From assembly GCA_022826045.1 (NCBI GenBank), contig JAJDVQ010000013.1, forward strand, positions 20,849-84,848: DNA of 64,000 nucleotides. Reading direction: 5' to 3'. Below, piece by piece: positions 1-54,545 of the stretch. The position numbers and the translations under genes were made by a program. Within the stretch, counting starts at the first letter, position 1. Every line of letters begins with the position of its first letter. Under the pieces are notes generated by a model. The model was not told where the DNA came from. It made no database searches and saw nothing but the letters and a program-made list of their open reading frames with translations. The DNA comes from Acidimicrobiia bacterium. GTDB taxonomy: Bacteria > Actinomycetota > Acidimicrobiia > Acidimicrobiales > Poriferisodalaceae.

Positions 1-51
1 GCGATCAGCAGACACGGGCCGACTAACCGGCGACAGGGCACCACAGACCGG

Positions 52-1062
52 CTAACCGGCCGTGGCCTCGCGCAGGGCCGCATTGCGCGACGCAGCCATG
101 CCGCCGGGGAAACCGATCTCGGCGGGGGCCTCGATCTGGCTCTGCAACACCCAGCCGAGCAGGCCGTGCCGATCGCAGATAGCCGTGTGCGTGCCCGCAA
201 GCCCCTGGGGCGCCACCACTGTGGCCGCATCGAAGTAGAACCACTCCCCCGTCGGCACGCGCAGCAGCTGCAGCGTCACATCGGTGTTGATGTAGGCGCC
301 GCCGGACGGCGAGAAATCCCACCCCACGGCCGCGCCGAGATCGGCCAAGGTCGCAACTCGCACCAGCGGTGACGTCTCCTCGCCCGCCATGATCGGATGG
401 TCCAATCGCAGCCACGTGCGGCCGGGGCCCGGCTCCTCCGTCGAGCCGCCGACGAAGCGAAAATCCACGGCGTCGGCGTTGAAGCCGGGACGCGGGTAGT
501 CGATGTCGGGATTGGCGCCGGGGCCGGCGCGCTCGGCCGGGATCGGCGGCAGCGATTGCCCGTCGCCCCCAAGCTCAGCCGACGGCTCAGTCGGGGTCAG
601 CCATTGCGACGTCGCCCGCGCCACCAGGCGACCCGTCTCCCGGTCCGCCGTCGCATCAGCAGCCCGCGGCGAGCCGACCGAGCCCGAGACGCCTTCGGAG
701 CCCCGCGCCCCCGACATCGCCCGCACCTCGGCGTCGACCAGCGCAGTTCGCTTGCCACCCTTCACGGTGGTTGCGGTGACCGCGTAGGTCGCCATCGGCA
801 TGCCCGAGAGGATCTCCACCGTCAACCGGCTGCAGACCTGCGCAATCCCGAGCCGCCGATGCTCGCGCTCGACCGCCCAGCCCAGCAGGCCGCCGATGGC
901 ACCGCCGTGCATCACCTGATGAGCCCACGGACCGCGCGTCAGTTCGGTCGCGCGCACGCCGCCAGCCTCCAGCACGAAGAGCGCCGGCGGCATCCGCCCG
1001 GGGAGCGCTGAGTCGGAAGAAGCAAGGGCTTCGCCGTTCGGCTCGGATCCGATGTTTGTCAC
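52..1062 (-). CDS. Acyl-CoA thioesterase-like (hotdog) protein
   Basis: 336-aa ORF; 'GPWAHQVMHGGAIGGLLGWAVERE' resembles TesB/thioesterase-superfamily N-terminus. Confidence 0.7.
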   Translation of the reverse strand: MTNIGSEPNGEALASSDSALPGRMPPALFVLEAGGVRATELTRGPWAHQVMHGGAIGGLLGWAVEREHRRLGIAQVCSRLTVEILSGMPMATYAVTATTVKGGKRTALVDAEVRAMSGARGSEGVSGSVGSPRAADATADRETGRLVARATSQWLTPTEPSAELGGDGQSLPPIPAERAGPGANPDIDYPRPGFNADAVDFRFVGGSTEEPGPGRTWLRLDHPIMAGEETSPLVRVATLADLGAAVGWDFSPSGGAYINTDVTLQLLRVPTGEWFYFDAATVVAPQGLAGTHTAICDRHGLLGWVLQSQIEAPAEIGFPGGMAASRNAALREATAG

Positions 1063-1145
1063 GGCGACAAGCTAGGTGGCAGGATGTTGGATCGCCCGTT
1101 CTCGTGTTCGAGCGATGCCAGCAACCAGCAGAGGGAAGGGGTGAC

Positions 1146-1970
1146 GTGACCGACACTGCCACCCCCGCTCCCCATGCGCCGCCAGCGACCACGGCCCCGC
1201 CATGGTGGACGCGGCTGCACCCGATCGGCTGGCTCGCCGGCGCCACGATCGCGTTCGCCATCATCGCCCGCCTCCTGTGGGACACCGACTACTGGATCGG
1301 CAACCTGGCGTGGTGGAACTGGCTGGTGCTGGCAGGCGCAGTGGCGATGGGCCTCTGGCACGACGGGCTCGACCGGCTCCGCCGGGGCGTGGAGTCGATC
1401 GCCACCTTCAGCCTGACCGTGGCGTGGATCCTGGCGTGGGTGGTCTTCGGGCTGCAGCTGTTCAACGTCATCACCCGCTACGGCAATGACCTCGTCGAGA
1501 CCGACATCCTCTTCGGCGAGACCACCAGCCTGGCGTGGCAGTCGTTCGGGCTCATGTTTCTCGTTGCCATCAACTTCGGCGTGCGCGACGGCGTGAACCC
1601 GCGCATCGACTTCTGGTGGGCCAACTTCAGCGCCAAGCGCAAGGCATGGCTCGACTTCGTCGTTCACTCGGCCCTGCTGCTGCCGTTCATCGTCATGGCC
1701 ATCCGCATCCTCAAGGGCTACGCGGCCACCTCACTGGGCCGTCGGCACAACGGCGAGTGGCCGAGCAGCTGGCGGGTCTGGGAGAGCTGGGAGCAGGGTG
1801 TCGATGCAGGCAGCCTCCCGGTGGGGCCGATCAAGGTGATGATCCTCGTTGCGTTCGTCCTGTTCGGACTGCAGATCCTTGCCGAGATGATCAAGACCGG
1901 CTTCGTGATGATCGGCGACGAGGCGAAGGGCGGCATCGTCGAGCACGAGTCGCCGCTGCGCGTCGAGTAG
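1146..1970 (+). CDS. TRAP transporter small permease (DctQ-like)
   Basis: Multi-TM protein directly upstream of DctM-like gene; likely GTG start at 1146. Confidence 0.7.
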   Translation: MTDTATPAPHAPPATTAPPWWTRLHPIGWLAGATIAFAIIARLLWDTDYWIGNLAWWNWLVLAGAVAMGLWHDGLDRLRRGVESIATFSLTVAWILAWVVFGLQLFNVITRYGNDLVETDILFGETTSLAWQSFGLMFLVAINFGVRDGVNPRIDFWWANFSAKRKAWLDFVVHSALLLPFIVMAIRILKGYAATSLGRRHNGEWPSSWRVWESWEQGVDAGSLPVGPIKVMILVAFVLFGLQILAEMIKTGFVMIGDEAKGGIVEHESPLRVE

Positions 1971-1977
1971 CTGCCCC

Positions 1978-3546
1978 ATGACCGACCTTCTGGCTATATT
2001 CGGCATGGACACGGGCGTCTTCCTGGCGCTGACGATGTTCGTCGTGTTCATGGGGATGATCCTCACCGGCTACAACGTCGCGTTCTCATTCGCCGCGACG
2101 GCCTTGGCGTTCGCGTTCATCGGCGACATCACCGGAGCGTTCAACACCGCCACGCTCAACACGCTGCCGGCGCGCTGGTTCGTGGCCATCAGCGACCCCG
2201 TGCTGCTCGCCGTGCCGTTGTTCGTGCTGATGGGCGCGATCCTGGAACGGTCCGGCATGGCCGAGCGGCTGCTGAACGCCGTGGGCATGCTGATGGGCGC
2301 GCTGCGCGGCGGCGTGGCCGCTGCGGTGGTGCTGGTGGGCACGCTGCTGGCCGCCGCGACCGGCGTGGTGGCGGCCACCGTCATCGTGATGGGCCTGCTG
2401 TCGCTGCCGGCGATGGTACGGCTCGGCTACGACAACAAGCTCTCGACGGGCGCCATCACCGCCTCAGGCACGCTCGCGCAGCTGCTGCCGCCCAGCATCG
2501 TGCTGATCCTGCTGGCCCAGCAGATGGGTGTGGGCATCCTGGGCCTGTTCGCCGGCGCGCTGCTGCCCGGCCTGATTCTCAGCGGCCTGTACGTGGCGTA
2601 CGTGCTGGTCGTGTCGTGGTGGAAGCCCGACATGGGCCCGGCCATGCCGATCGAGGAGCGCAAGCTGGAAGGCAACCCGTCGATCCAGACCAAGCTGCTG
2701 ATTGCAGCCCTGCTGGGCTTCATGGTGGGCTGCGTGATGCTGCTCGCCAATCTGCGCGTGGCAGCCATCGCAGCAGTGCTGGTGATGCTCGCGAGCTTCG
2801 CGATCATGGCGTTCGCCAGGATGCTGGCGTGCGAGGTGCTCATTGCGATCGTGCCGATCGTGGTGCTCATCCTCGGCGTGCTGGTGTCGATCTTCCAAGG
2901 CATCGCAACGCCGTCGGAGTCGGGTGCCGTCGGCGTGTTCGGGGCGCTTGCCCTCACCGGCCTGAACTGGCTCTTCGACCGCCTGCTGATGCGCGAGGGC
3001 GCCACCCACATCACGCCCCAGTGGCGACTCAACCGCGCAGCAGCAGTGCAGGCGGGCAAGTCCACCGCCAGCGTGGTGGTGCTGGTGATGACGCTGCTGT
3101 TCAGCTCCACCTTTTTCAGCGCCATGTTCTTCCAGCTCGGCGGCTCCGATCAGACCTCCGAGTGGCTCACCTCCATCGGCGGCGGCAAGCTGGGCTTCGT
3201 CATCATCGCGATGATCGCGGTGTTCCTGCTGGGCATCAATCTGGAGTTCCTCGAGATCACCTTCATCGTGGTGCCCATCTTCGTCCCGGCCATGGAGGTG
3301 CTGGGTTTCACCCAGGACGAGAAGATCTGGTTCGCCGTGATGATGGCGGTGAACCTGAACATGGCGTTCATCTCGCCGCCGGTGGGCTTCTCGCTGTTCT
3401 ACCTGCAGAGCGTGGCCCCGCCCGAAGTGCGCACCGCCGACATCCACAAGGGCGCCATCCCGTTCATGGGGCTCCAGTCGATCGCCTTGGTGATCCTCGG
3501 GGTGTTCCCGGGCATCGTGTACACGTCGCTCGAGTTGTTCAGTTAG
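1978..3546 (+). CDS. TRAP transporter large permease (DctM-like)
   Basis: 522-aa hydrophobic protein with DctM-like features (GVVAATVIVMGLLSLPAMVRLGY, ATPSESGAVGVFGAL). Confidence 0.88.
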   Translation: MTDLLAIFGMDTGVFLALTMFVVFMGMILTGYNVAFSFAATALAFAFIGDITGAFNTATLNTLPARWFVAISDPVLLAVPLFVLMGAILERSGMAERLLNAVGMLMGALRGGVAAAVVLVGTLLAAATGVVAATVIVMGLLSLPAMVRLGYDNKLSTGAITASGTLAQLLPPSIVLILLAQQMGVGILGLFAGALLPGLILSGLYVAYVLVVSWWKPDMGPAMPIEERKLEGNPSIQTKLLIAALLGFMVGCVMLLANLRVAAIAAVLVMLASFAIMAFARMLACEVLIAIVPIVVLILGVLVSIFQGIATPSESGAVGVFGALALTGLNWLFDRLLMREGATHITPQWRLNRAAAVQAGKSTASVVVLVMTLLFSSTFFSAMFFQLGGSDQTSEWLTSIGGGKLGFVIIAMIAVFLLGINLEFLEITFIVVPIFVPAMEVLGFTQDEKIWFAVMMAVNLNMAFISPPVGFSLFYLQSVAPPEVRTADIHKGAIPFMGLQSIALVILGVFPGIVYTSLELFS

Positions 3547-3638
3547 CCGCGGCAGCCCATCAGGCGTGGTTCCGACGCGTGCTAGTTTCGCGCCGAGCAG
3601 TCGACGCGGTGTTGCGCGCCTGCGGGGAGGCACTACCA

Positions 3639-4871
3639 ATGACTACGCACGACGAGGCCAGTCCGGAGACTGCCCTTGATGACACCGTCGAAGCCGGCGG
3701 GTTCGACCGGAGATCGTTCCTCAAGGCCGGTCTCGGCGTGGCGGGATTCGCAGCGGCCGCCACGGTGCTCAACGCCTGCAGTTCCGACGACGGCGACACT
3801 GCAGCGACGACCTCTGAAGGCCCCGTCGGCACCGACGCGCCGACCACATCGGTGGCGCTCACCCAGGACGGTCCCGAGATCGAGTGGGAGATGGCGACGA
3901 GCTGGCCCGCTGCGCTGGTGACCCTGTTCGGGTCAGCCCAGCACTTCGCCGAGCAGGTGAGCCGTCTCACCGGCGGCAGGTTCAAGATCAATCCTCGGCC
4001 GGCCGGCGAGATCGTGGGCGGCCTCGAAGTGCTGCCCACCGTGCGCGATGTCGGCGTGCAGTCGGGCCACACGGCGTCGTACTACTACGTGGGACTCAGC
4101 CCCGTGCAGCAGTTCGGCACTGCGGTCCCGTTCGGGCTGACCCAGCGCCAGCAGAATGCCTGGCTGTACAGAGGCGGCGGCCTCGACATGCTCAACGAGT
4201 TCTACGCCGAGGAGCACGGGGTGATCGCGTTCCCCGCCGGCGGCACCGGCTGCCAGATGGGCGGCTGGTTCACCAAGGAGCTCAACTCGGTCGGCGACCT
4301 GCAGGGCCTGAAGATGCGGATCCCCGGCCTCGCGGGGCGGGTCCTCGAGAATCTGGGCGGCGAGCAGGTCACCTTGGCCGGCGGCGAGATCCTGCCGGCG
4401 ATCCAGCAGGGCGCGATCGACGGCGCCGAGTTCGTGGGTCCCACCGACGACCTGATCCTGGGCCTCGACCAGTTCGACGGCGAACTGTTCTATTACCACC
4501 CCGGCTGGTGGGAGCCCGGCACTGCCGTGGAGGTGCAGTTCCCGCTGTCGTTGTGGAACGACTTGCCCGCCGAGTACCAAGCGGCGATCGAGATCGCTGC
4601 GGCGGCGACGAACATCAACACGATCGCCGACTACGACGTGCGCAACCAGACCGACCTGCAGCGCGTGAAGGAGTTCGCCAACATCCGGCAGTTCCCCGAC
4701 GACATGATGGCGGCGTTCAAGGAAGAGACCGAGAACGTGCTGGACGCGGTGGCGGCGGACGATGCTCGCTTCGCCGCCATCTTGGCGCCGTGGCGGGAGT
4801 TCCGTGACGGCATCGCCGAGTGGCACGGCTTGGCGGAGCGTTCCTTCCTGGACCAGCAGACGCAGATCTAG
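3639..4871 (+). CDS. TRAP transporter substrate-binding protein (DctP-like), Tat lipoprotein
   Basis: ATG at 3639; twin-Arg 'DRRSFLKAG' followed by lipobox-like 'LNAC'; 'ATSWPAALVTLFGSAQHFAEQVSRLTGGRFKI'. Confidence 0.88.
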   Translation: MTTHDEASPETALDDTVEAGGFDRRSFLKAGLGVAGFAAAATVLNACSSDDGDTAATTSEGPVGTDAPTTSVALTQDGPEIEWEMATSWPAALVTLFGSAQHFAEQVSRLTGGRFKINPRPAGEIVGGLEVLPTVRDVGVQSGHTASYYYVGLSPVQQFGTAVPFGLTQRQQNAWLYRGGGLDMLNEFYAEEHGVIAFPAGGTGCQMGGWFTKELNSVGDLQGLKMRIPGLAGRVLENLGGEQVTLAGGEILPAIQQGAIDGAEFVGPTDDLILGLDQFDGELFYYHPGWWEPGTAVEVQFPLSLWNDLPAEYQAAIEIAAAATNINTIADYDVRNQTDLQRVKEFANIRQFPDDMMAAFKEETENVLDAVAADDARFAAILAPWREFRDGIAEWHGLAERSFLDQQTQI

Positions 4872-5002
4872 CCGGATCGCACAGGTTCTCGTCGGCAGAC
4901 CGACCGGTGCCGGGTGCCAGCGTCGGCTGCGAGTATCGCCGTCTCGTGCCGTTGACGCGCAACCGTCGTCCCGAGCAGATCGGCGGCGCGTAGGGTGCCC
5001 TC

Positions 5003-5932
5003 GTGCATCCGTTCAGATTCGGCGTCCAGTACGGCAAGCCAGAGAGTCCCGCTGTGTTCCGCGAGACGGCGCGCAAGGTCGAGGATCTCGGCTATTCGAC
5101 CTTGTTCTGCCACGACCATTTCTGGGACAGCTGGTCGCCCATCGTGCATCCCGCCGTCGCGGCGGAGATCACCACGACCCTGCGGGTCGGGACGCTGGTG
5201 TACGCAGCCGACTACCGGCACCCCGCAGTGCTGGCGAAGGACTTCGCCACCCTCGATCTGCTGGCGGAGGGACGCACCGAGTTCGGCATCGGCGCCGGCT
5301 GGCTGACAGACGACTACGAGCAGGCGGGCATACCGCTGGACCGGCCCGGCGTGCGCATCGACCGCATGATCGAGGCGTTGGAGGTCATCAAGGGGCTGTG
5401 GCGGGGCGAGCCCTTCGACTACGACGGCGAGCACTACCAGATCGCCGGCATGGTGGGCCGCCCGCTGCCCCACACGCCTGGCGGGCCGCCCGTCATCATC
5501 GGCGGCGGCGGCAAGCGGGTGCTGAGCGAAGCTGCCCGCCTTGCCGACATCATCAGCCTGAACCCGAATCTCCGCTCGGGCACCGTGGGCCCCGATGCCG
5601 CCCGCAGCTCGGTGGCCGACAAGTTCGTCGAGCGCCGCCAGTGGATCGCAGACGCCGCCGGGGACGGCTTCGCCGACATCGAGATCCAGCTCAACACGTT
5701 CATGGCGTTGGTGTCCGACGACGCCGACAGCGTGCTCGAGCAGTTCGCGCCCGGCTTCGGGCTGACGCTGGAGGAAGCCCGCGAGGTTCCCTTGGTGCTG
5801 GCCGGCACGGTCGACGACATCTGCGAGCAGCTGCATCACCACCGCGAGACCTACGGCGCCAGCTACATCATCATCCACGACCCCGAGGTCGATGCCATGG
5901 CGCCGGTGGTGGCCCGCCTCGCCGGCACCTGA
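5003..5932 (+). CDS. LLM class F420-dependent oxidoreductase
   Basis: 'FRFGVQYGKPESPAVFRETARKVEDLGYSTLFCHDHF', 'GGGGKRVLSEAARLADIISLN'. Confidence 0.88.
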   Translation: MHPFRFGVQYGKPESPAVFRETARKVEDLGYSTLFCHDHFWDSWSPIVHPAVAAEITTTLRVGTLVYAADYRHPAVLAKDFATLDLLAEGRTEFGIGAGWLTDDYEQAGIPLDRPGVRIDRMIEALEVIKGLWRGEPFDYDGEHYQIAGMVGRPLPHTPGGPPVIIGGGGKRVLSEAARLADIISLNPNLRSGTVGPDAARSSVADKFVERRQWIADAAGDGFADIEIQLNTFMALVSDDADSVLEQFAPGFGLTLEEAREVPLVLAGTVDDICEQLHHHRETYGASYIIIHDPEVDAMAPVVARLAGT

Positions 5933-6035
5933 GCGGCACGCTGGCACCCGGCGTGTCGCGACTGACGCGATTGCACTGCGACAATCAATCCATGACGTCA
6001 ACGCAGGAAGACTCAACGCCCGAAAACGATCGGAG

Positions 6036-6500
6036 TTATAGGGCTGTTTCCCCAAGATCGGCGTCGTCGATCGCTTGGTAGTCGAAGGTGACGCTGAGCG
6101 AGTCGGTTAGGCGTTCCATCGTCAGCCACGGATCCTTGCGATGCACCATGACGTGACAGTTCACGCACAGCGGACGCACCTTTTCGATTGCCTCGGACAG
6201 CGTCAGTTCCCGTGCCCCACCGTTCCCGTGCCCCACCGAACGCAATCGGTTCTAGGTGGTGGATTTGGATGTAGCCCGCCCCGATGCCGACGTAGGCGCG
6301 GTCAAAGTCGAATGAGCAACTGGCGCACGGAAGTTTCCCACCCACGGTGCAGTGCTGCACGGCGGCATCTCGCAGTCGATTGGAGCGCTTGCGGTAGTTG
6401 GCGGTGCGCCTGTTCAACTGGCCCTCTGTGATGACGCTCTCGTCGATGACGACAACCGGCAATTGGCTGAGTGCGACCGGGTCCAGACGGCGCGCGGCGC
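6036..6500 (-). pseudogene. HNH endonuclease, frameshifted by a 16-bp tandem duplication (5' limit approximate)
   Basis: '...CASCSFDFDRAYVGIGAGYIQIHHLEPIAFGGARE' in one minus frame continues as 'GGARELTLSEAIEKVRPLCVNCHVMVHRKDPW' in another, exactly at the duplication. Confidence 0.75.
6206..6237. repeat. Perfect 16-bp tandem duplication (GTTCCCGTGCCCCACC x2)
   Basis: 6206-6221 and 6222-6237 are identical. Confidence 0.97.
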
Positions 6501-6570
6501 CGCCGGACGCTTGCGCATTAGTGCACGCATCAAATCGTCGTCGGGTACCCAGGGATGGTAGTTTCCGCGT

Positions 6571-7374
6571 ATGAGCACAGCCGCGATGGAAGAGGTCGCC
6601 AGTCGCCGCTGGCCCGGCGGCGTCGAATGCCCCAAATGCGGCAGCCGGGACGTCGCCCGACGCAAACCGCAGAAACGTCGCCGCTGGCCGCAATGGCGAT
6701 GCCGTGCATGCCGCCGAGATTTCACAGCTCTCACAGGGCACCCTCAGCGCGCCCGCAGCCGCCGCCCGGCAGCGGGCATCGCCGCGGACGACGTCAGGGT
6801 CCGCGATGCAGCCCAGCGCCCCGCCGCCGCAGGACTGTCGGCAGGGGCACGCCGCACGCTTGCTGTGCTGCGACGACGCCCGGACGGCGCCACAGCAGCC
6901 AAGATCAGCGAACTCAGCGGGCTGTCGCTCTCGCAGACGCACAGAACGCTGCGAAATTTCGCGGAACGCGGCTGGGCATGCCGACGCGACGGCACTGTCC
7001 GCGACGGGCATCAGCTCCGGGGAACGAACCTGTGGCAGATCGTCCACTCCGACGAATGCCTCGCAGCGCTCGCTTCGCTTCCCGTCGAGAGCTTCCCGAT
7101 GCCGCCGCTTCCTCAGCCGGACATGGTCCCGCCCGAATTCTGGCATCTGTTCTGGTCCGGGCTGCAAGGCTCCGAGCTGCGCATCGGCGAACACGCCGAG
7201 CACATCGGAGGCGTCATGATCGGCAGCAACGATCTCAGCGCCGAAGCGTGGGCGCTGCGTCATCTCCCGACAGACGCACTCATGACGCTGCACCGCGCGC
7301 GGACCCGGACCGGCAGCCCGTCGGGGCGGCTGCTTGCAGCCACGATCCGGCACAGGGCCGGTCCCGATGCTTGA
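6571..7374 (+). CDS. AbiEi-like antitoxin/regulator with N-terminal transposase-type zinc ribbon and wHTH
   Basis: 'RWPGGVECPKCGSRDVARR...WRCRACRRDFTALTG' (Cys4 ribbon) then 'ATAAKISELSGLSLSQTHRTLRNFAERGW'; overlaps the downstream AbiEii-like gene. Confidence 0.6.
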   Translation: MSTAAMEEVASRRWPGGVECPKCGSRDVARRKPQKRRRWPQWRCRACRRDFTALTGHPQRARSRRPAAGIAADDVRVRDAAQRPAAAGLSAGARRTLAVLRRRPDGATAAKISELSGLSLSQTHRTLRNFAERGWACRRDGTVRDGHQLRGTNLWQIVHSDECLAALASLPVESFPMPPLPQPDMVPPEFWHLFWSGLQGSELRIGEHAEHIGGVMIGSNDLSAEAWALRHLPTDALMTLHRARTRTGSPSGRLLAATIRHRAGPDA

Positions 7375-8233
7375 AGGCCACGCGCATCTCTTCGCTCCGC
7401 AGCTGCGAGGGCTCTGGCCGCTCGCCGCGGAAATCGCTGCCGAAGTGAACGGGCGGCTGATGGGCGGCACCGCGCTCGCAGTCCACCTCAAGCACCGAAC
7501 CAGCGAAGACCTCGACATCATGACCATGGACGGCTTCGACGGACGCGAGCTTCGCGCGTCGATCGAGAAACGCATGCGGCAGACCAGACCGGACGACTGC
7601 TGGCGTGCCGTCGAGATCATCGAAGCACGCAACGACAGCTACTGCGCCGTCATCGACGGCATCCGTGTCGAGGCTTTCACCGCTCTCGGCAGCGGGTCAG
7701 CGAAATCGTCTGACATGCGATGGGTGCAAGCCGCGCAGGTCGTAGAAGGAACCCCCGTCGGCACCGTCCCCGACATCTTGGCGTCGAAGCTCGCTGTCAT
7801 CGAACGCCGCCAGAAGCTCCGCGACTACATCGACCTCGCTGCCATCGACCGGAGCACCCCGTGGAAGCTCGAAGACGGACTCGACTTCTACCGTCGCGTG
7901 CACGGCTTCGACGTCAACCCCGACCCGCATCAGATGCGCCGGATCGTCACAGCGCTGAGCGCGCCCGGCTACATCGAACCGGATCCCGGATTCGACTCGC
8001 AGCGCGACGACACGCTCGAATACCTCGAGCATCGTTCCGGCGATCTGCTCGACTACATGGCCGAAATCGCGGACCGGGACGTCGCCCGCGCCGCCGAGAA
8101 GCACGCATCCGGGCTCGGCGCTTCGCGTGCATCAGCGAGCTCGTCGCAATGCGGGGCGTGGATGCCGCGCGCTCGCACCGCATGCCGACTGCCGCCCGAC
8201 CACAAAGGCCCTCACCGTCGCAGACGCAGGTGA
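7367..8233 (+). CDS. AbiEii/AbiGii-family nucleotidyltransferase toxin-like protein with C-terminal CCHH tail
   Basis: 'GRLMGGTALAVHLKHRTSEDLDIMT'; ATG 7367 overlaps upstream stop by 8 nt; C-terminus CGAWMPRARTACRLPPDHKGPH. Confidence 0.8.
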   Translation: MLEGHAHLFAPQLRGLWPLAAEIAAEVNGRLMGGTALAVHLKHRTSEDLDIMTMDGFDGRELRASIEKRMRQTRPDDCWRAVEIIEARNDSYCAVIDGIRVEAFTALGSGSAKSSDMRWVQAAQVVEGTPVGTVPDILASKLAVIERRQKLRDYIDLAAIDRSTPWKLEDGLDFYRRVHGFDVNPDPHQMRRIVTALSAPGYIEPDPGFDSQRDDTLEYLEHRSGDLLDYMAEIADRDVARAAEKHASGLGASRASASSSQCGAWMPRARTACRLPPDHKGPHRRRRR

Positions 8234-8333
8234 ACGCGCTGCCCTGTCGGCACGGGCGACGGACTGCCGAGTTCGGTGACGCCTGGCGTGCCTGCCGGCG
8301 GGCGCTGACAGGTCGGTCGGTAGCGTCGCTGTT

Positions 8334-9278
8334 GTGAGCCGCCGCGGCAGTTTCGAGTTCAGTGTCGAGAGTGTCTGGGACCGTGACCCGCGGGTCGCGG
8401 AGGGAGCCGTGTCGCGGGTGCTGGCCGTCGGCGATCTTCACGGCATCATGACTGCTTTGCAGTCGGCGATAGCTGTCGATGTGGACGTCGAAGCCGACGC
8501 GATCGTGCAGGTCGGAGATTTCTGGCTCGCTGACAGGCACTGGTCGAAGTTCACTGCACGCCACTCCGCCTACATGGAGACCGCGGCGGCGTCGCCGGTG
8601 CCGATAGTGGCCATCGACGGCAACCACGAAATCTGGCCGACGCTCGCGAGGTTCGCGGCTACCCCCGAAGCACTGCAGGCCGCGGCGGCACGCCGCCCTG
8701 TCAGTCTCGGCGGCAGCCTGTGGTGGGCGCAGCGAGGCAGCGTCTGGACATGGAACGGCTGCCGCGTCGGCGCGCTCGGCGGAGCGGTGTCACCTGACAA
8801 GCACATCGAGGACGTCCGCCGGTACCGATGGCCCGAGGAGACCGTCACCGACGCTGACCTGGGCCGGCTCGTCGAGAACGCTGACGTCGAGCACGATGGC
8901 AAGCTCGACCTGCTGTTCACCCACGACGCGCCCGCTCAGACTCGAGGGCTCCGCGGGGGCGTCGACTACCTGTGGCGGTTCCCCGAGGTCGAAGCCGAGA
9001 TGAACCAGACCCGCAAGCTGCTCGCCGAAGCCGTCGTCCGGCTCGAACCCGGCACGCTGCTGCACGGGCACTGGCATCAGCACAACCGCGAGACCATCAA
9101 CGAAACCACCGACGCAGTCAGCCTCGCAGCCAACATGGAACCCGGAACCGCTGCCGCTGCCGTGCTTGACCTTCACGGACCCGGCGTCGACGTCGAAACA
9201 ACAGGAATCGGGTACAGGACCGACACAGCCAGATGGGCCGCCAGCGCACGCGACATCACGCGACTCGCTGAACTGTGA
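8334..9278 (+). CDS. Calcineurin-like metallophosphoesterase
   Basis: 'VLAVGDLHG', 'VQVGDFW', 'IDGNHE', 'LLFTHDAP', 'LLHGHWHQHNRE'; GTG start. Confidence 0.88.
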   Translation: MSRRGSFEFSVESVWDRDPRVAEGAVSRVLAVGDLHGIMTALQSAIAVDVDVEADAIVQVGDFWLADRHWSKFTARHSAYMETAAASPVPIVAIDGNHEIWPTLARFAATPEALQAAAARRPVSLGGSLWWAQRGSVWTWNGCRVGALGGAVSPDKHIEDVRRYRWPEETVTDADLGRLVENADVEHDGKLDLLFTHDAPAQTRGLRGGVDYLWRFPEVEAEMNQTRKLLAEAVVRLEPGTLLHGHWHQHNRETINETTDAVSLAANMEPGTAAAAVLDLHGPGVDVETTGIGYRTDTARWAASARDITRLAEL

Positions 9279-9305
9279 CGAGCTGTCCCCCGTTCGCCGG
9301 GGAAC

Positions 9306-10673
9306 TCACCGTCGCCGGTAGCGGTGCTGGCCGCCGTGGCCTCGTGGCAGGACACACGGCTTGCGGGATCGCGGCCCGCGGTGCCCGCAAGGAGGCGGCC
9401 CGGGGCGATTCGGAACAACCGAGGCCGGAGTGTTGCCTCGTGGCGGGGGGCGCGTTCCAAGGCTGTGCGTCATCACACCGTCGGGCTGCATCTGACGCAT
9501 TGCGCCTACCAGGTCGGCGACCGTGTAGCGGACGTTGCGCTCTCCGCCAGCCGTGTCCAGGATGCCGGCTGACGCGAGCGCTTTCACGGCGTTGCGTGCG
9601 ACCCGCTCGGACACCCCGAGACGGACGCTGACCATCCCTGTGTCGAGCACCGGCATGGACGGCAGATGCGCCAGCAGACGCGCGGAAGCGCTGCCTGCTC
9701 GGAAGCGCGCCTGCCGTTGCCATTTCTCCACGAGCCGTTCCATCATGCCTGCGGTTCTCTCTGCCTGCTCGTAGGCGCTCTCGCAGGCTTCGCCGAATCG
9801 GCGGATCCATTGTTCGTGTACTCGGCTTCGGGTCGCGGTGTCGTCGACGACGCAGTCCACGCGGGTGTCGTTCAGTGCGGCGTAGTAGCCGGCCCTGTCT
9901 CGCTCGAGCGCTGTGCTGATCGGGACTGTCCCGCCCGCGAGCCGATGAGCGTTGAGCACCGCCTGTATCAACGCCCGTCCGGTGCGTCCGTTGCCGTCCT
10001 CGAACGGATGGATTGTCTCGAACTGGGCGTGAACGATTGCTGCTCTGAGCACAGCAGTGTGTCCGCTGCCGTTGATGTAGCCGACGAGGTCATTGAGCAG
10101 CCCCTCGAGATGCTCAGGCGGCGGCGCCACAAACGTCGCGTCGTCGATGAGGCAGCCGGCAGGACCGACCCATATCGGCTCAGCGCGGATCGTTCCGCCT
10201 ATGTCGTGGTCGCGGATGTTCTCGAACAGCGCCATGTGCAATCGAAGGATGTCGTCGACAGTGCAGGCATGGCCTTCGGACATCTGCCGGCCCAGTGCGA
10301 CCGCGGCAGCTATCTGGCGGGACGCGCCGAGCGTCAATGTCTCGTTGGCGTCTGACACAGGTCGACCGACTTGTTCTCGATAGCGCGCCCAGGCGAACGC
10401 GTCTGTGGTGGTGTGGATGTTCTCGATGGCGCTCGTGCGGATGCTCTCGTCGCGGGCCGTCATCCAATCCGCCAAGGCGCTTCCGAGGTCCGTGTGCGGC
10501 AGCGCCGTGATGCGTTCGAGGGCGCTCTGCGCGGCGACCAGCGTTTCGACCGCGGCTGCGCTCAGTTGCGGTTCCCAGTCGCGCAGCGGATGCGGCACGT
10601 AGGCTCGGTAGGAGCGGTGCCCGTACCCGACTCGACTCGCGAGCCAGCCCTTCGCCGCCACATATCTGCCCAT
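9306..10673 (-). CDS. Fic family protein with C-terminal CCHH tail
   Basis: 'IHPFEDGNGRTGRALIQ' Fic motif; GGGGG RBS before ATG at 10673; C-terminus CGHRGPRSRKPCVLPRGHGGQH. Confidence 0.9.
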   Translation of the reverse strand: MGRYVAAKGWLASRVGYGHRSYRAYVPHPLRDWEPQLSAAAVETLVAAQSALERITALPHTDLGSALADWMTARDESIRTSAIENIHTTTDAFAWARYREQVGRPVSDANETLTLGASRQIAAAVALGRQMSEGHACTVDDILRLHMALFENIRDHDIGGTIRAEPIWVGPAGCLIDDATFVAPPPEHLEGLLNDLVGYINGSGHTAVLRAAIVHAQFETIHPFEDGNGRTGRALIQAVLNAHRLAGGTVPISTALERDRAGYYAALNDTRVDCVVDDTATRSRVHEQWIRRFGEACESAYEQAERTAGMMERLVEKWQRQARFRAGSASARLLAHLPSMPVLDTGMVSVRLGVSERVARNAVKALASAGILDTAGGERNVRYTVADLVGAMRQMQPDGVMTHSLGTRPPPRGNTPASVVPNRPGPPPCGHRGPRSRKPCVLPRGHGGQHRYRRR

Positions 10674-10685
10674 AGCCCCCACAAT

Positions 10686-10753
10686 AACGTTCCGCATGGG
10701 CTATTCCGGCGTTCGGAACGGAACTTCACGGGCACAACGTTCCGCATGGGCTA
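10686..10753. promoter_or_regulatory. Direct repeats AACGTTCCGCATGGGCTA (10686-10703 and 10736-10753) upstream of fic
   Basis: 18-bp identical copies with 50-bp start-to-start spacing, with CGTTCGGAACGGAAC between them. Confidence 0.75.
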
Positions 10754-10813: not shown

Positions 10814-11390
10814 TCAGGGCAGCGAGACTCGGTCTGTGTGGTCTTCGATTCTGCGTGTGTGAGCGGACGGCAGGTCACCGCCGAGCGGTCCGACCGGTTC
10901 CTTTGGGTCGGCGGCGAACGAGTCGAACTGTTCGTTGGCTTCGACAGCAGCATCAGCGCCTACGACGTCGAGGTGACGGTCGCGGGTTTGCATGGCGACC
11001 GCTCGCAGCAGCATCCGGTCCGGCATGATCTGCCCTTTGGCGCCGTTCGGGGTCGCTGCCGGGACAGACTCGTATTCGGCGAACGGATACGTGTCGACCG
11101 GTGTCTCGCTGGCTTCGCAGCGATATCTGTATTCGACGCCGATGGGCGAGTCGGAGCTGTCCTCAGCCCAGCGGACAACCGGAGCGTCGAACTCGTCGGA
11201 ACGGACGGTCGGTGATGGCTCGCACGTTCTCGAGCAGCAGCGTCGGACGTTCGTCGCTGCGAGCGAGCAGGCCCGTGAGCGCATCGAACAGCCACCGCCC
11301 GTCGCTGTCTCCGCGGCGTTCGCCGACGGTGGCCATCAGCACCTCCCCGCAGAAGGCCGGGTAGCTGTGACACCCCTGTCCTAGCTTTCG
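10814..11390 (-). pseudogene. Degraded coding remnant, frameshifted near 11,200; identity uncertain
   Basis: Plausible protein in two minus frames ('GEVLMATVGERRGDSDGRWLFDALTGLLARSDERPTLLLENVRAIT' then 'VRSDEFDAPVVRWAEDSSDSPIGVEYRYRCEASETPVDTYPFAEYE'). Confidence 0.35.
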
Positions 11391-11394
11391 TGCC

Positions 11395-14300
11395 GTGGCC
11401 ACCGACACCATGACGGACGAGGTACCCCGCAGCGGCAGCGCTTCGGAGAGCGAAGGGGTGCGGGTTGTTCCCGTGGCTTTCGGAATGCCGGCACGACAGG
11501 CGCTGGCTGCGTTGGCGGCCGAAGCCAAGACGGGCGACCCGCTGAGACCGGTCACTGTCGTGGTGCCGTCCAACTACACCGGGCTGGCGCTGCGTCGTGC
11601 CTTCGCCTTGGGGGTCACCGATGAGGGAGACGAGGCACCGGGCGACACGGCACGGGCGACCGGCGGCGGCATCGCGGCATTTGACACGCTGACGTTCGGG
11701 GCACTCGCCGATCGACTGGCCGGGCCGTCCCTGCAAGCAGCCGGCCGGCGGCCGCACGGCGCCATGGTGCTGACGGCAGCCGTACGCGAGGCACTTCGCC
11801 ACGATGCTGCCCTCTTCGGGCCGGTGGCCGATCACCACCGCACCGCGGAGGCGCTGGCGGGGACCTACAGCGAACTGCGCGATCTCTCGCCGCGCCAACT
11901 GAAGCAGGTCGCCGCGACATCCACGCGGGCAGCGGCCGTCGTCGCCATCTGCGAACGCATCAGATCGTTGCTGGCGCCGGAGTGGTACGACACGAGCGAA
12001 CTCCTGCAGGCCGCCGCTGCACACGCGGAATCTGCACAGCCAGGCGCCCTCGCGTTCGACCCGGGAGAGTTCGTGCTGTACCTGCCGCGACGGCTCAGCG
12101 TGCCTGAGGCCCGGCTGGTGCGCGCACTCGGCCTGTGGACGCTGGCCGCGCGCCGCATGCCGCTGCATGTGCTGGTGGGCGTCACCGGCGATCATGCAGC
12201 CGACGCGTCGGCGCGAGCGGTCTGCGAGCGACTGGGAGTCGGGCTGCCGGCCCATGAGGCGATGCCGCCGACCGGCACGCGGATCATGAGCGTCACCGAC
12301 CCCGACGAGGAAGCGCGCACTGTGGTGCGCGCCGTGGTGGCCGATCTCGACGAAGGTGTGGCCCCAGGGCGCACTGCGGTGTTCTACGCGGCGGCCGAAC
12401 CGTACGGACGCATGCTTGAAGAGCAATTCGAGGCTGCGGGCGTGCTGACGTACGGCAGCACCGCACGCACGCTGGGCGAGTCGATCTACGGGCGATTTGC
12501 CTTGGGCTTGAGCGCTCTGGCCGACGACGGCGGCACTCCCTTCCTCGGACGTCGCGAAGTGTTCGATCTGCTTGCCGGCGCCAAGATCCCGCGTCGGCAG
12601 CCCCGCCAGCGAAACGCTGAGGAGCACTTCTTCGTGCCCGATTCGGCGTGGGAGCGCTTGGCTCGCGCAGCCCATGTGGTCAGCGGTGACGACTGGGAGG
12701 TCCGGCTGTCGGCTCACGCCGAGCTGCTGGAAAGCCAAGCGCGGCCCAGAGCCCACGGCGAAGCATCGGCAGACACCCAAGCCGCATGGCTCCGTCGGCA
12801 GGCCCGCGAATGCCGTGCAGCAGCAGAGTTCGCGGCAGAACTGCGCGATCGCGTGCAGCAAGGCAGGCAGCACCGGACATGGCGCAGCCTGTGCGACTGG
12901 ATGCGCGCCTCGCTGCGGCGCTACCTGGGAGCAGTGGGGCGCGACGGCTGGACGCAGGATTGGCCGCCGTGGGAGCGCAGTGCCGCGGAGCGCGTGGAAG
13001 GCGTGCTCGACCGGCTGGCCGACCTCGGCACGGTGGAGAGGCGGGTCACGCTGGGTGTGATGCGCCGCGCGCTCGAAGTCGAACTCGGCCAACCGCACGG
13101 TCGCAGCGGCACCGAGGGCACCGGCGTGTACGTCGGTCATGTCAATGGCGCAATCGACATCGTTGTCGATCGCACGTACGTCGTAGGCCTGGCCGAGGGC
13201 ATCTTCCCCTCGCGCCCCGTGCCCGACAGCCTCATCAACGAGGACGAGCGCCGTGCGCTGGGCGGCGCACTGGCACAGCAAACCGACGCGACCGCCGAGC
13301 AGCATCGAGCGCTGCTGGCCGCGATGGCCGGCGCCCGCCACGCCTGCACCCTGCTGCTTCCACGCGGCGACTTGCGTCGTAACTGCGAGTACGTGCCGTC
13401 ACGCCTGCTCATCGACACCGCTCGCCGACTCGAGCGTGCTGCTCGCGGCGGCGATGCTGCGGCGAACCCGGCGGGCCGCTCGGAAAGCGGTCAGGAGTAC
13501 TTCGCCGACGGCCTAGTGGACGGCGACAGCCTCAGCGCCGCGGCGCTCGACAGCGCGGTGGACGGCATCATCGAGGCCCCCTCGTATCTCGCCGGGATTC
13601 GCTCCGCCGGCTTTCCGGCCACGGTCACCGAGTACGACGCGGCGAGCCTGCTTGGGCACTGTGCGAGCGGGCGCCCGGTCGCGAGCCATGCACTGTGGCG
13701 CGACCCCGCACTGCGCAGGGGCGTCTCGCTGACCGACGCCCGCGCCAGCAGCGAGTTCACCCGCTTCGACGGGAACCTGGCCCGCGTCATCGATGCCGAC
13801 GGCGCGCTGGCCAAGGTCATGTCCGCCACCCGTCTCGAGCACTGGGCCACCTGCCCGCGGCGCTACCTGTTCGAGGATCTGCTCGGCATCAAGGCTGTCG
13901 AAGAACCCGAGGACATCCTGCGGCTCAGCCCGCTCGAACGAGGCCATCTCATGCACGAGTCCATCGACCGCTTCTTGCAGCCCCTGATCGCGAATCGACA
14001 GTCGGCAGGCAGGGACGCGCCCGTGGCTCTCAGCGGTCCGGGCCGCATGCCTCCGGGACCGCAGCGTCCGCCTTCCGACGAAGACCGCGACGAGCTTGTC
14101 GCTATCGGCCGCGAGCTGGCAGACCAGCGAGAAGCGCAAGGCCTGACCGGTTCGCCGCTGCTGTGGCAGCGCGACCGAGCCGCAATCTTGAGTGACCTGG
14201 CCGAAATGCTGGAGCGAGACGGCGACAAGCACCGGCCGCCCCGCGGCGAGATCGAAGGTTCGGAGTTCCGGTTCGGCTTTGCCGATTCCGCGGCCGGGGC

Positions 14301-14937
14301 CGTCGCATTCGACCTCGCCGACGGGCACACGGTGCGCTTTCGAGGCGTCATCGACCGGGTGGAGCGCACGGACGACGGCGCGTTGGTGGTCATCGACTAC
14401 AAGACCGGTTCGCCGCGCAGCTACCGGGGCCTGACGCCCGCCACTGCGCCGCGGACGTCCGAGCCAGATCCCACGCTGCGAGGCACGAAACTGCAGCTTC
14501 CCGTCTATGCGCTCGCTGCGGCTGAGCACTTTCGCGGCGCCGCGACCGTCGGCGCAGCAGATCACGCCGCCTACTGGTTCATCTCGAGCCGGCCCGGTTA
14601 CTGGACTTGGATCGATCTCGCTGTCGACGACGAGGTGATGCGGCGGTTCGCCCAGGTGGTCGAAGTCATCGTGGCGGGCATCCGCGGCGGTGTGTTCCCC
14701 GGCTATGCCCGCCCCGGTGACGATCGCCTGCCCTTCGTGGCATGCCCGTACTGCGATCCCGACGGCATCAGTTCGGGCGATGTCCGCAACGACTGGATGC
14801 GCAAGCGGCACCAGCCGCTGCTCGAGGGCTTCAGCCGCCTGGCCGAGCCTGACGAACACGACGCACTTGGCGCCGCGGCCGATGCCGACCCTGACGCTGC
14901 GTCACCGCGCGGGCGCTGCGTGGGCGGGCCGCGGTGA
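11395..14937 (+). CDS. AddB-like ATP-dependent nuclease subunit with PD-(D/E)XK nuclease C-terminus
   Basis: 1180 aa; 'VIDRVERTDDGALVVIDYKTGSPR...KLQLPVYALAA' RecB-like nuclease motif; next to an AddA-like gene. Confidence 0.82.
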   Translation: MATDTMTDEVPRSGSASESEGVRVVPVAFGMPARQALAALAAEAKTGDPLRPVTVVVPSNYTGLALRRAFALGVTDEGDEAPGDTARATGGGIAAFDTLTFGALADRLAGPSLQAAGRRPHGAMVLTAAVREALRHDAALFGPVADHHRTAEALAGTYSELRDLSPRQLKQVAATSTRAAAVVAICERIRSLLAPEWYDTSELLQAAAAHAESAQPGALAFDPGEFVLYLPRRLSVPEARLVRALGLWTLAARRMPLHVLVGVTGDHAADASARAVCERLGVGLPAHEAMPPTGTRIMSVTDPDEEARTVVRAVVADLDEGVAPGRTAVFYAAAEPYGRMLEEQFEAAGVLTYGSTARTLGESIYGRFALGLSALADDGGTPFLGRREVFDLLAGAKIPRRQPRQRNAEEHFFVPDSAWERLARAAHVVSGDDWEVRLSAHAELLESQARPRAHGEASADTQAAWLRRQARECRAAAEFAAELRDRVQQGRQHRTWRSLCDWMRASLRRYLGAVGRDGWTQDWPPWERSAAERVEGVLDRLADLGTVERRVTLGVMRRALEVELGQPHGRSGTEGTGVYVGHVNGAIDIVVDRTYVVGLAEGIFPSRPVPDSLINEDERRALGGALAQQTDATAEQHRALLAAMAGARHACTLLLPRGDLRRNCEYVPSRLLIDTARRLERAARGGDAAANPAGRSESGQEYFADGLVDGDSLSAAALDSAVDGIIEAPSYLAGIRSAGFPATVTEYDAASLLGHCASGRPVASHALWRDPALRRGVSLTDARASSEFTRFDGNLARVIDADGALAKVMSATRLEHWATCPRRYLFEDLLGIKAVEEPEDILRLSPLERGHLMHESIDRFLQPLIANRQSAGRDAPVALSGPGRMPPGPQRPPSDEDRDELVAIGRELADQREAQGLTGSPLLWQRDRAAILSDLAEMLERDGDKHRPPRGEIEGSEFRFGFADSAAGAVAFDLADGHTVRFRGVIDRVERTDDGALVVIDYKTGSPRSYRGLTPATAPRTSEPDPTLRGTKLQLPVYALAAAEHFRGAATVGAADHAAYWFISSRPGYWTWIDLAVDDEVMRRFAQVVEVIVAGIRGGVFPGYARPGDDRLPFVACPYCDPDGISSGDVRNDWMRKRHQPLLEGFSRLAEPDEHDALGAAADADPDAASPRGRCVGGPR

Positions 14938-17900
14938 GTGCGGCGACCGGCGCCGAGCCGGCAGCGGTAGCCGATCATTCCGTACGCGAGCGCGTCGTGC
15001 ACGACGTCGGCTCGACGATGTTCGTGGAGGCCGGCGCTGGCACCGGCAAGACCACCGCGCTGGTCGGTCGCATCGTCGAGCTGGTGTCGGGCGAGCATGC
15101 CGTGCCGATCAGCGCGATTGCGGCCATCACGTTCACCGAGAAGGCCGCCGCCGAATTGCGCAATCGAATCCGCGCGGAGCTGAACGCCCGATTGGCAGGG
15201 TCGCAGGACGCCCGGACGTGCCAGCAGTTGCGTGACGCGCTCGACGGGCTCGACAGTGCAGCCATCTCGACGCTGCACAGCTTCGCTCGCCGCATCCTCA
15301 GCGAGCATCCCATCGAAGCCGGACTGCCGCCGCTGTTCGAGACGCTTGATCAGATCACGAGCGACGTCGAGTTCGACGATCGCTGGCGCAGTTTCGTCAA
15401 CGGGCTCCTGGCCGACCACGATGCGCTGTGGCTCGTGCAGATGCTCGACGCGGCCGGCGTGACGCCAGCCGATCTGCGCGAGATAGGCGCTGCCTTCGGC
15501 GCCAACTGGGACCGCATCAGGCAGCCGGACCGCCCATTCGAGCCGGCGCCGCTGCAGATCGACGGTCTGGTGGCCCGCGGCAGCGCGCTGTGCGCGCGCA
15601 GGCGCGAGTGCAGCGATCCCGGCGACAAGGCGCTGGCCCGCTTCGGACAGCTCGAAGAGTTCGTGGCTCGCCTGCGATGGGCGCGCAGCGACGCCGAGGC
15701 GCTGGGGGTGCTGCTCGATGCCGAAGACTCCCGCCACGGCGTCCCCAAGATCGGCAACCGTCGCAGGGGAACAGGGCAGGCCCAGAACTGGAAGGACATC
15801 GCGTCGGTGCGCGAGGACTTCACTGCATTGCGCGTGCTCTGCACCGAGACGGCAGCCGAAGCGCTGCAGCAGGTGATCTCTGCGTGGTGCAGCCACGTCG
15901 CCCGCTTCACCATCGAAGCCGCAGAGCAGCGGCGTGCCAGCGGGCGGCTGGAGTTCCACGACCTGCTGGTTCGCGCACGCGACCTGCTGAAGTCATCGCA
16001 TGATGCCCGCGACTCGCTGCACCGGCGGTACCGGCACCTGCTGCTCGACGAGTTCCAGGACACCGACCCGATCCAGATCGAGATCGCAACGCGCATCGCT
16101 GCCGTGGTGGATGCCGACGAGTCCGTGCCCGACGGCTGGCGGCACATCGACACCGTGGACGGGCAGCTGTTCTTCGTCGGCGATCCCAAACAGTCGATCT
16201 ACCGGTTCCGTCGGGCCGACATCAGCCTGTATCTCGATGCCAAGGACAGCTTCACGAGCTCGCAGCCTCAGACGGCGCTGGTCACGAACTTCCGCACGAC
16301 GGAGCCGATCATCGAATGGGTCAATCACGCCTTCGGCCGGCTGATGGCTGCCCGCGGCGTCGATCCGGTCGATCAGCTCGCACCCCCGGCACACGACGCC
16401 GGCGCCGAACCGGCGGCGGCAGCCGACGCAGCGCCGCAGCATTCGGAGCGACTTCACCCCGAGTATGCACCCCTGCACGCATCGAGATCGGCAGTGGGCC
16501 ACGGGCCGGCAGTCGTGACGCTGGGCCTGAGCGGCCATGGCGATATCAGTGCGCAAGCCATTCGCGAGGTTGAGGCCGCCGACATCGCCAGCGCCATCAC
16601 CGAGATCCTCGCGAATCAGTGGTCCGTCGAGGACCGTCACCGCGGCGGCGAGCGGCCAGCCCGCCTCGGCGACATCGCCATCCTCATCCCGACGCGGACA
16701 TGCCTGCCGCAGCTTGAAGCGGGACTGACAGCAGCGCAGGTGCCGTATCGCCTCGACGCATCGGAGTTCGTGTGGCGCTCCCGGACGGTGCGTGATCTGC
16801 TGATGTGCCTGCGGGCCGTTGCCGACCCCGACGACGCTCTCGCGGTCGCGAACGCGCTGCGCACGCCGCTGTACGGGTGCGGCGACGACGACCTGTACAC
16901 GTACTGCCGAGCGGTCGGGTCGTGGAGTCTCTTCGCTTCCGATTTCTCCGCAGTGCCGGGCGGCGCCGAGCACCCGGTGGCACTAGGCATCCAGCACCTG
17001 CGGCGTCTCTACGACGAGCATGCCGTTGTCGCCCCGTCGGTGCTGCTCGACCGGCTGGTACGCGAGCGGCGCGTCGTCGAGCAGGCCGCAGCCGGGCGGC
17101 GAACCCGCCAAGTCTGGCGACATGTGCGCTACGTCATCGATCAGGCGCGGGCATGGTCGCACAGTCAGCAAGGAGGCTTGCGGCAGTTCCTCCGCTGGGC
17201 CTCGATGCAGGCGTCCGAACGCGCCAAAGTCACCGAGGCAATCCTTCCCGAATCTGACGACGACTCGGTCAGGGTGATGACGGTTCACGCAGCGAAAGGA
17301 CTCGAGTTCCCGATCGTGATCGTGGCGGGCCTCCAAGGCGGCAACCGGTCGCGGCCGTCGCTCGTGGGCTTCACCGGCGCTGACCACGACGGCCCCGAAC
17401 ACTGCTGCGGCGCTGCCGCAGTGCGCCTGCGCGCCGGCGCCGAGACAGCCGGCTACGCACTCTGGGCCGAACGCGAGAAGACAGCGGATCACTTCGAGCG
17501 CATCCGGCTGCTGTACGTGGCCTGCACCCGCGCACGCGACCACCTGATCGTGTCGTTGCATCGCCCGCTGCCGCCCGCGAACGCGGACACCGCGCAGCAG
17601 CCGCGCAGCAAACCCAGTTCGCAGCTGCTCTTCGAAGCGATGCCGAAGCTCGACGCCGGGACGGTGGCGAGCGCTCGCGGCTGGGACTACCGAGAGGCCC
17701 CGGGCGATGCGACGGTTGCCCTGCAGGCCGCCGACACCGCGGCCTCGCGCAGCGGGCTTCCCGAGCGCGGCGACTGGCTTGCGCGACGGGAGCGAGCTGT
17801 GCGATCAACGAGAGTTCGCTCGGCGCTCAGCGCCACCTTCATTGCTCGCGGCGGTGCCGCTGCGGTCGGCGGCGGAGGACCTCACCAAGTCAGTCCGCAC

Positions 17901-18653
17901 GCGAGCCCCCGCGGCGACAGTCCGCCGGCCCGCGGCCCGGACGACATCGGCCCGACCCACGACGGGCTCAGCGCAGATCCAGTCGATGCACGCCATGCCG
18001 GCAAGGACGCGCCCGACGAACATCTCGGCGACGAGGGGCCTCCTGCACGCCGCGGGCGTGGCGCGACGGCAGTGGGCAAGGCAGTGCACGGTGTGCTCCA
18101 AGCCGTCGATCTGGCCGACGGCGAAGCGCTCGACGAGTTGGCCGCTGCACAAGCCGTTGTCGAAGGCGTGGCAAACCGAGCCGAGGAGGTCGCCGACTAT
18201 GTCCGCTCTGCTCTGGCCAGCGACGAGGTGCAGTGTGCCGCTGCGGGGCGATGCTGGCGCGAGGTGTACGTGGCCGCTCCGGCAACGCCGACTGCGTCAT
18301 CGTCGGGTGCTGCCTCGGGTCCGGTTGTGGAGGGCTACATCGACCTGCTGTTCGAGGACGGCCAGTCCGACGGGCTCGTCGTTGTCGACTACAAGACCGA
18401 TGCGCTCGGCGCGATGCCCGGCGCCGACCACGAACGTGCCGAGCAGTATCGGCGGCAGGTCACCGTCTACGCATGGTGCCTCGAACGGGCGACCGGCCTT
18501 CCGGTCGCCCGTGTGGTACTGCTGTACCTGCGCGCCGACGGCACGCCGGCTCACGCTGATGCGCTGGGGGGCGAAGCGCTGCGCCAAGCGATCGATGATG
18601 TGGCCGAGCGCGCAGCCGAACTCGCCCAAGCACCCGACGAGTCGACGTCGTAG
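14934..18653 (+). CDS. AddA-like UvrD/Rep-type helicase-nuclease
   Basis: Walker A 'VEAGAGTGKTTALVGRIVELV', 'LLLDEFQDTDPIQIEI', 'VMTVHAAKGLEFPIVIVAGL', nuclease 'GLVVVDYKTD'; 4-nt overlap with upstream gene. Confidence 0.92.
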   Translation: MSAATGAEPAAVADHSVRERVVHDVGSTMFVEAGAGTGKTTALVGRIVELVSGEHAVPISAIAAITFTEKAAAELRNRIRAELNARLAGSQDARTCQQLRDALDGLDSAAISTLHSFARRILSEHPIEAGLPPLFETLDQITSDVEFDDRWRSFVNGLLADHDALWLVQMLDAAGVTPADLREIGAAFGANWDRIRQPDRPFEPAPLQIDGLVARGSALCARRRECSDPGDKALARFGQLEEFVARLRWARSDAEALGVLLDAEDSRHGVPKIGNRRRGTGQAQNWKDIASVREDFTALRVLCTETAAEALQQVISAWCSHVARFTIEAAEQRRASGRLEFHDLLVRARDLLKSSHDARDSLHRRYRHLLLDEFQDTDPIQIEIATRIAAVVDADESVPDGWRHIDTVDGQLFFVGDPKQSIYRFRRADISLYLDAKDSFTSSQPQTALVTNFRTTEPIIEWVNHAFGRLMAARGVDPVDQLAPPAHDAGAEPAAAADAAPQHSERLHPEYAPLHASRSAVGHGPAVVTLGLSGHGDISAQAIREVEAADIASAITEILANQWSVEDRHRGGERPARLGDIAILIPTRTCLPQLEAGLTAAQVPYRLDASEFVWRSRTVRDLLMCLRAVADPDDALAVANALRTPLYGCGDDDLYTYCRAVGSWSLFASDFSAVPGGAEHPVALGIQHLRRLYDEHAVVAPSVLLDRLVRERRVVEQAAAGRRTRQVWRHVRYVIDQARAWSHSQQGGLRQFLRWASMQASERAKVTEAILPESDDDSVRVMTVHAAKGLEFPIVIVAGLQGGNRSRPSLVGFTGADHDGPEHCCGAAAVRLRAGAETAGYALWAEREKTADHFERIRLLYVACTRARDHLIVSLHRPLPPANADTAQQPRSKPSSQLLFEAMPKLDAGTVASARGWDYREAPGDATVALQAADTAASRSGLPERGDWLARRERAVRSTRVRSALSATFIARGGAAAVGGGGPHQVSPHASPRGDSPPARGPDDIGPTHDGLSADPVDARHAGKDAPDEHLGDEGPPARRGRGATAVGKAVHGVLQAVDLADGEALDELAAAQAVVEGVANRAEEVADYVRSALASDEVQCAAAGRCWREVYVAAPATPTASSSGAASGPVVEGYIDLLFEDGQSDGLVVVDYKTDALGAMPGADHERAEQYRRQVTVYAWCLERATGLPVARVVLLYLRADGTPAHADALGGEALRQAIDDVAERAAELAQAPDESTS

Positions 18654-35817: not shown

Positions 35818-36000
35818 CCTGCAACGAAGGGCGGGGAATATTCCCCGCCAAACTCGACGTCGAGGGTGAGCTCGCCTTGCCACAGCGTCATGCTTCAATG
35901 AAGGGCGGGGAATATTCCCCGCCAAACCTGCCGTGCTGGTGACCGCCCGCCGATGCGGATTCCGGCTTCAATGAAGGGCGGGGAATATTCCCCGCCAAAC
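35818..36000 (-). CRISPR. Short CRISPR array: 3 x 36-bp repeats, 2 spacers
   Basis: GCTTCAATGAAGGGCGGGGAATATTCCCCGCCAAAC (+ strand) at 35892-35927 and 35965-36000; degenerate terminal copy 35818-35853 (3 mismatches); spacers 35854-35891 (38 bp) and 35928-35964 (37 bp); next to cas2. Confidence 0.95.
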
Positions 36001-36048
36001 CCACTCTCGAAAACTACCGGCCCTGACCAGCGGATTTGAACGCAGTTG

Positions 36049-54381: not shown

Positions 54382-54545
54382 GGCAAGCCCCCCTCACCTG
54401 AGGCTCGGCAGGTCCCAGACGCTGCCAGCGTAGGCCAGGCGCCCAGCAGAGGCCGCGTGCGCGTCATGAGCAGTGTCATGAGCTTGAGCAGTGTCATGAG
54501 CTATCGACATACATCAGTGCATGGAGAGCGCTCTAGTCTGCCGGT

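Follow-up and report, generated by a model that had tools for sequence, protein, structure and literature searches.

The closest relatives of the gene fragment described here are two nuclease genes, each of which lies directly after a D12/Dam-type adenine methyltransferase gene, a gene order that, judged by the predicted products, corresponds to a type II restriction-modification system made up of two genes. The best relative (locus L019, which is L033 in GTDB, from an Acidimicrobiia MAG) comes from a genome of the same order and another family, and matches with 71% identity over query residues 6-128 (E = 1e-58); the next (L034) comes from a Candidatus Aldehydirespirator catecholifindens MAG. 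In both nucleases an HNH domain at the C-terminus follows an N-terminal region, and the frame of L034 is open, with more than 100 and, by eye, up to about 145 residues preceding the part that matches our sequence. The intact L034 nuclease shows a weak sequence match to the McrA-like 6ghc_A (E = 0.027) and also weakly matches PADLOC mREase_IV, and the adjacent methyltransferase genes argue for type II rather than type IV. The N-terminal part of the L019 nuclease carries one in-frame TAG (upstream of 1501; also L043), because of which this best relative may be decaying too.

Two further kinds of described gene bear comparison with the locus. According to PMC3488263, 99 of 272 solitary restriction endonuclease genes were taken to be probable fragments, and a type II nuclease that is active without its partner is toxic. 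Short spontaneous tandem duplications are able to switch genes reversibly, an example being the capsule genes of pneumococci (PMC4022640, referring to Waite et al. 2001 and 2003), and PMC4022640 also gives a reversion frequency of ~1e-5 at most for insertions up to 9 bp. Literature searches rendered no paper on the reversion frequency of the capsule duplications, and nothing on bacteria for microhomology-mediated tandem duplication.

The window, that is, the whole stretch of 64,000 nucleotides analysed here, contains a fragment with 59-74% protein identity to the L034 and L019/L033 nucleases over the part that is kept, with equal CxxC-HH-CxxCH spacing and a similar C-terminal end (VTYDY/VTFDY), but it has neither their longer N-terminal part nor an adjacent methyltransferase gene, and it differs from them by a 16-bp tandem duplication. 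With the HNH family PF01844 and the McrA-like nucleases (PDB 6ghc) it shares the HNH motif, although in that case the similarity is confined to the catalytic part. By its match to L019, the fragment descends from the same type II nuclease family, and we consider it, with a probability of about 0.82, to be the dead remainder of the C-terminal part of a type II restriction endonuclease gene, acquired horizontally and of the kind that pairs a D12/Dam-type methyltransferase with an HNH nuclease. The features of the locus are as follows.

5953-6030, plus strand: truncated gene of a retropepsin-like aspartyl protease, of which the first 26 codons remain (PF13975, just under the cut-off)
6030/6031, no strand: junction at which synteny with four congeners (88-95%) stops inside the aspartyl-protease gene (synteny comparison)
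6036-6218, minus strand: downstream piece of the relic, GARELTLSEAIEKVRPLCVNCHVMVHR..., carrying the C-terminus and the remaining half of the HNH motif (CxxCH); 70% amino-acid identity to L019 and L034
6206-6221, minus strand: copy 1 of the 16-bp unit GTTCCCGTGCCCCACC (given in plus-strand order; repeat detection)
6222-6237, minus strand: copy 2 of the unit; since 16 mod 3 = 1, the additional copy displaces the frame on the minus strand by one position
6223-6456, minus strand: upstream part of the HNH relic, VVVIDESVITEG...CASC...IQIHHLEPIAFGGARE, with the linker and the first half of the HNH motif; 74% amino-acid identity to L019 and 59% to L034
6455/6456, no strand: rearrangement junction at which homology to the restriction nuclease ends, the N-terminal half being missing; beyond it (6456-9708) lies a segment common to the congener G001
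6456-6570, plus strand: upstream region of the divergent zinc-ribbon/HTH gene, abutting the 5' end of the relic (synteny and sequence comparison)
6571-7374, plus strand: gene of a zinc-ribbon (IS1595-type) and winged-HTH protein, upstream neighbour of an AbiEii-like gene (domain search)

A tandem duplication within the HNH motif

The preliminary description had reported a perfect back-to-back duplication that splits an HNH nuclease frame and looks recent, and of this the duplication was confirmed and the recent-looking split of the frame supported. The unit is present in two exact copies without a gap at 6206-6237 (a 33-bp stretch, 2.06 copies, 100% match), and the 32-mer that they form occurs only once in the 3.64-Mb assembly. 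From base composition, ~1e-4 perfect tandem pairs of at least 16 bp are expected in 64 kb, and a chance origin of the repeat was rejected on that basis. The unit lies within the coding region and its length is not a multiple of three, so that the minus strand reads ...CASCSFDFDRAYVGIGAGYIQIHHLEPIAFGGARE in one frame and GARELTLSEAIEKVRPLCVNCHVMVHR... in another, separated by the extra copy, and the two halves of the HNH active site (CxxC...HH and CxxCH) fall in different frames with all of their residues present. In an alignment of 14 homologs the motif CxxC...HH...CxxCH was read in a single frame in every case (14/14), and the two-copy frame was found in none of them; programmed frameshifting, which no homolog needs, was rejected. 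Moreover, the spacing of the motif in L019 and L034 equals that of the window when the repeated residues GGARE are counted once. The repeat was found in no other genome examined, since ten congeners are without 6031-6455 and L019 and L034 have the single-copy spacing.

Compared with Pfam HNH (PF01844), both pieces joined as one peptide scored 20.1 bits, just under the curated threshold of 21.4, and the relative L019 itself scored 18.4 bits; the Pfam search rendered no HNH match for either piece alone, the NCBIfam search no match for the nuclease, and the search of viral contigs no relative of the upstream piece. About 125 C-terminal codons are kept, with no stop besides the effect of the duplication. 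Differences from L019 at the three codon positions number 12/13/40 before the duplication and 12/5/21 after it. They fall mainly at third positions, so that until recently selection acted on the encoded protein and the relic evolved as coding DNA.

The missing front half and the two junctions

The DNA homology to L019 begins at 6455, and the loss at the 5' end of the nuclease gene amounts to about 145 codons, that is, roughly half of the gene. A second frame disruption had been suspected near 6,500. The discontinuity is real, but it is the rearrangement junction at 6455/6456 and not a frameshift; the latter was rejected because the N-terminal half is encoded in none of the frames upstream of 6456, and the DNA of that part matches a different segment, found in G001. 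The break lies near the interdomain linker, so that a complete HNH domain remains. The N-terminal half of the nuclease had no match in the genome of the window (G000) at E<=10, nor in a further search at E<=1 in which the control genome G346 was matched at 3e-36; in G346 this half is contiguous with the rest of the nuclease. By reading of the sequence, the kept upstream part has no in-frame ATG or GTG start, and in-frame TTG codons are present in it, from which a short product is conceivable.

The methyltransferase is likewise missing, as the L019 methyltransferase used as query had no match in G000 at E<=0.001 and none adjoins the relic. Three other D12-family methyltransferase genes scored above the cut-off in the genome (a draft in 104 contigs, about 91% complete), all of them on other contigs, and a distant partner among these is a slender possibility.

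On the downstream side of the relic, window positions 18-6030 are syntenic with four congeners (G001, G007, G008 and G009) at 88-95%, up to the truncated aspartyl-protease gene, which G001 and G008 have in intact form (180-182 aa) and which shows the same arrangement in G009. The relic segment that follows (6031-6455, ~425 bp) was absent from all ten congeners searched. On the other side, 6456-6486 (31 bp) matches one contig of G001, beside an apparent insertion sequence, and 6485-9708 matches another contig of G001 at 98.6%. The equivalent spot in G001 (L014:7117-7517, contig C167) holds a different fragment without a Pfam hit, in which a DPPF motif resembling the one in DNA methyltransferases is recognised by eye and which adjoins an apparent insertion sequence. 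Since the congener carries a different methyltransferase-like fragment there, the comparison suggests that defence genes have been exchanged here repeatedly.

Probable decay of the gene and alternative readings

The relic may be explained by a rearrangement at a spot of defence-gene turnover, which would have taken away the front of the nuclease gene together with the methyltransferase gene, and by a 16-bp duplication, arisen by spontaneous replication slippage or end joining, which would have broken the relic further either before or after the truncation. No working nuclease would then be made from it today. As an unpaired type II nuclease is toxic, nuclease activity would be expected to have been lost before the methyltransferase or together with it. 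The fragment resembles the truncated genes among the solitary restriction endonucleases (PMC3488263) in being a piece of a nuclease gene without a methyltransferase near rearranged or mobile DNA, and differs from them in that its catalytic motif is also broken by a short tandem duplication. The fragment is a clear, if ordinary, instance of restriction-modification decay, with the partner and the front half gone and the catalytic motif broken. The suggestion of a fresh pseudogene in the preliminary description came close to this, but the locus is rearranged and the relic in it lacks its 5' part. The open codons on both sides of the duplication and the completeness of the HNH domain are a counterpoint to the interpretation as a dead relic.

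It could also be the case that the second copy is an assembly or sequencing error and is absent from the organism, the gene still being a truncated relic. The draft state of the genome favours such an error, but the window has further perfect pairs, of 18 bp, and assemblers do not typically create a perfect 16-bp duplication within 33 bp, which short reads span with ease. We regard an error as unlikely, and it would not rescue the gene or alter the main conclusion.

A phase-variable nuclease, in which gain or loss of one 16-bp copy switches an otherwise functional HNH protein on and off, had been considered as well. Reversible switching by short spontaneous duplications is known from the capsule genes of pneumococci (PMC4022640, after Waite et al.), which resemble the locus in that a short duplication within the coding sequence inactivates the gene, and the preserved HNH domain and the TTG codons are in line with it. 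The capsule genes are however otherwise intact and revertible, whereas the gene in the window is also 5'-truncated. The repeat has two copies only, and the low reversion frequency given in PMC4022640 is for insertions of no more than 9 bp; besides, it recurs in none of the other genomes. Reversion would still leave a gene without its front half, so the lesion, which had been called exactly reversible, is not the sole defect: about 145 codons, the start region and the partner methyltransferase are missing too, and the otherwise intact gene that switching presupposes was not found. Phase variation is for these reasons most improbable, and apparent cases of a gene one duplication away from being intact call for a check of the 5' end before phase variation is invoked.

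Barely credible is a further version, in which the truncation would have given rise to a stand-alone HNH-domain protein, translated from an in-frame TTG, with the intergenic region of the divergent zinc-ribbon gene driving its expression, and toggled by the 16-bp duplication within the population. That the duplication is the only lesion of an otherwise intact, freshly dead nuclease gene, as the open frames on both sides over ~125 codons might indicate, is next to untenable, being already contradicted by the break at 6455/6456, with different DNA upstream that matches a segment of G001, and by an N-terminal half found neither upstream nor elsewhere in the assembly but contiguous in the control genome.

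Neighbouring island and other parts of the window

The zinc-ribbon (IS1595-type)/winged-HTH protein lies next to an AbiEii-like nucleotidyltransferase (PF08843, 44 bits), and the pair (6571-8233) is possibly a type IV toxin-antitoxin-like system with an unusual antitoxin architecture. The same island includes a Fic/DOC protein related to the SoFic adenylyltransferases (9306-10697); G001 is without the stretch that matches 9709-10557. Further along, a PD-(D/E)XK nuclease gene and a UvrD/AddA-like helicase-nuclease gene (11395-18653) show ~97% identity to G001 where this is covered (11196-14740), and ~66-79% to G008 and G009 in the alignable pieces, with DNA on both sides at about 90-94% identity to G008 and G009; the pattern looks as if a divergent allele had been substituted here.

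A second perfect two-copy tandem duplication is located at 54467-54502, with a unit of 18 bp, a length that is a multiple of three. Finally, three copies of a ~36-nt repeat, GCTTCAATGAAGGGCGGGGAATATTCCCCGCCAAAC, the first of them degenerate at its start, are found at 35820-36002 with a spacing of 73-74 nt and differing intervening sequences, an arrangement that, read on the minus strand, resembles a very small and perhaps orphan CRISPR array.
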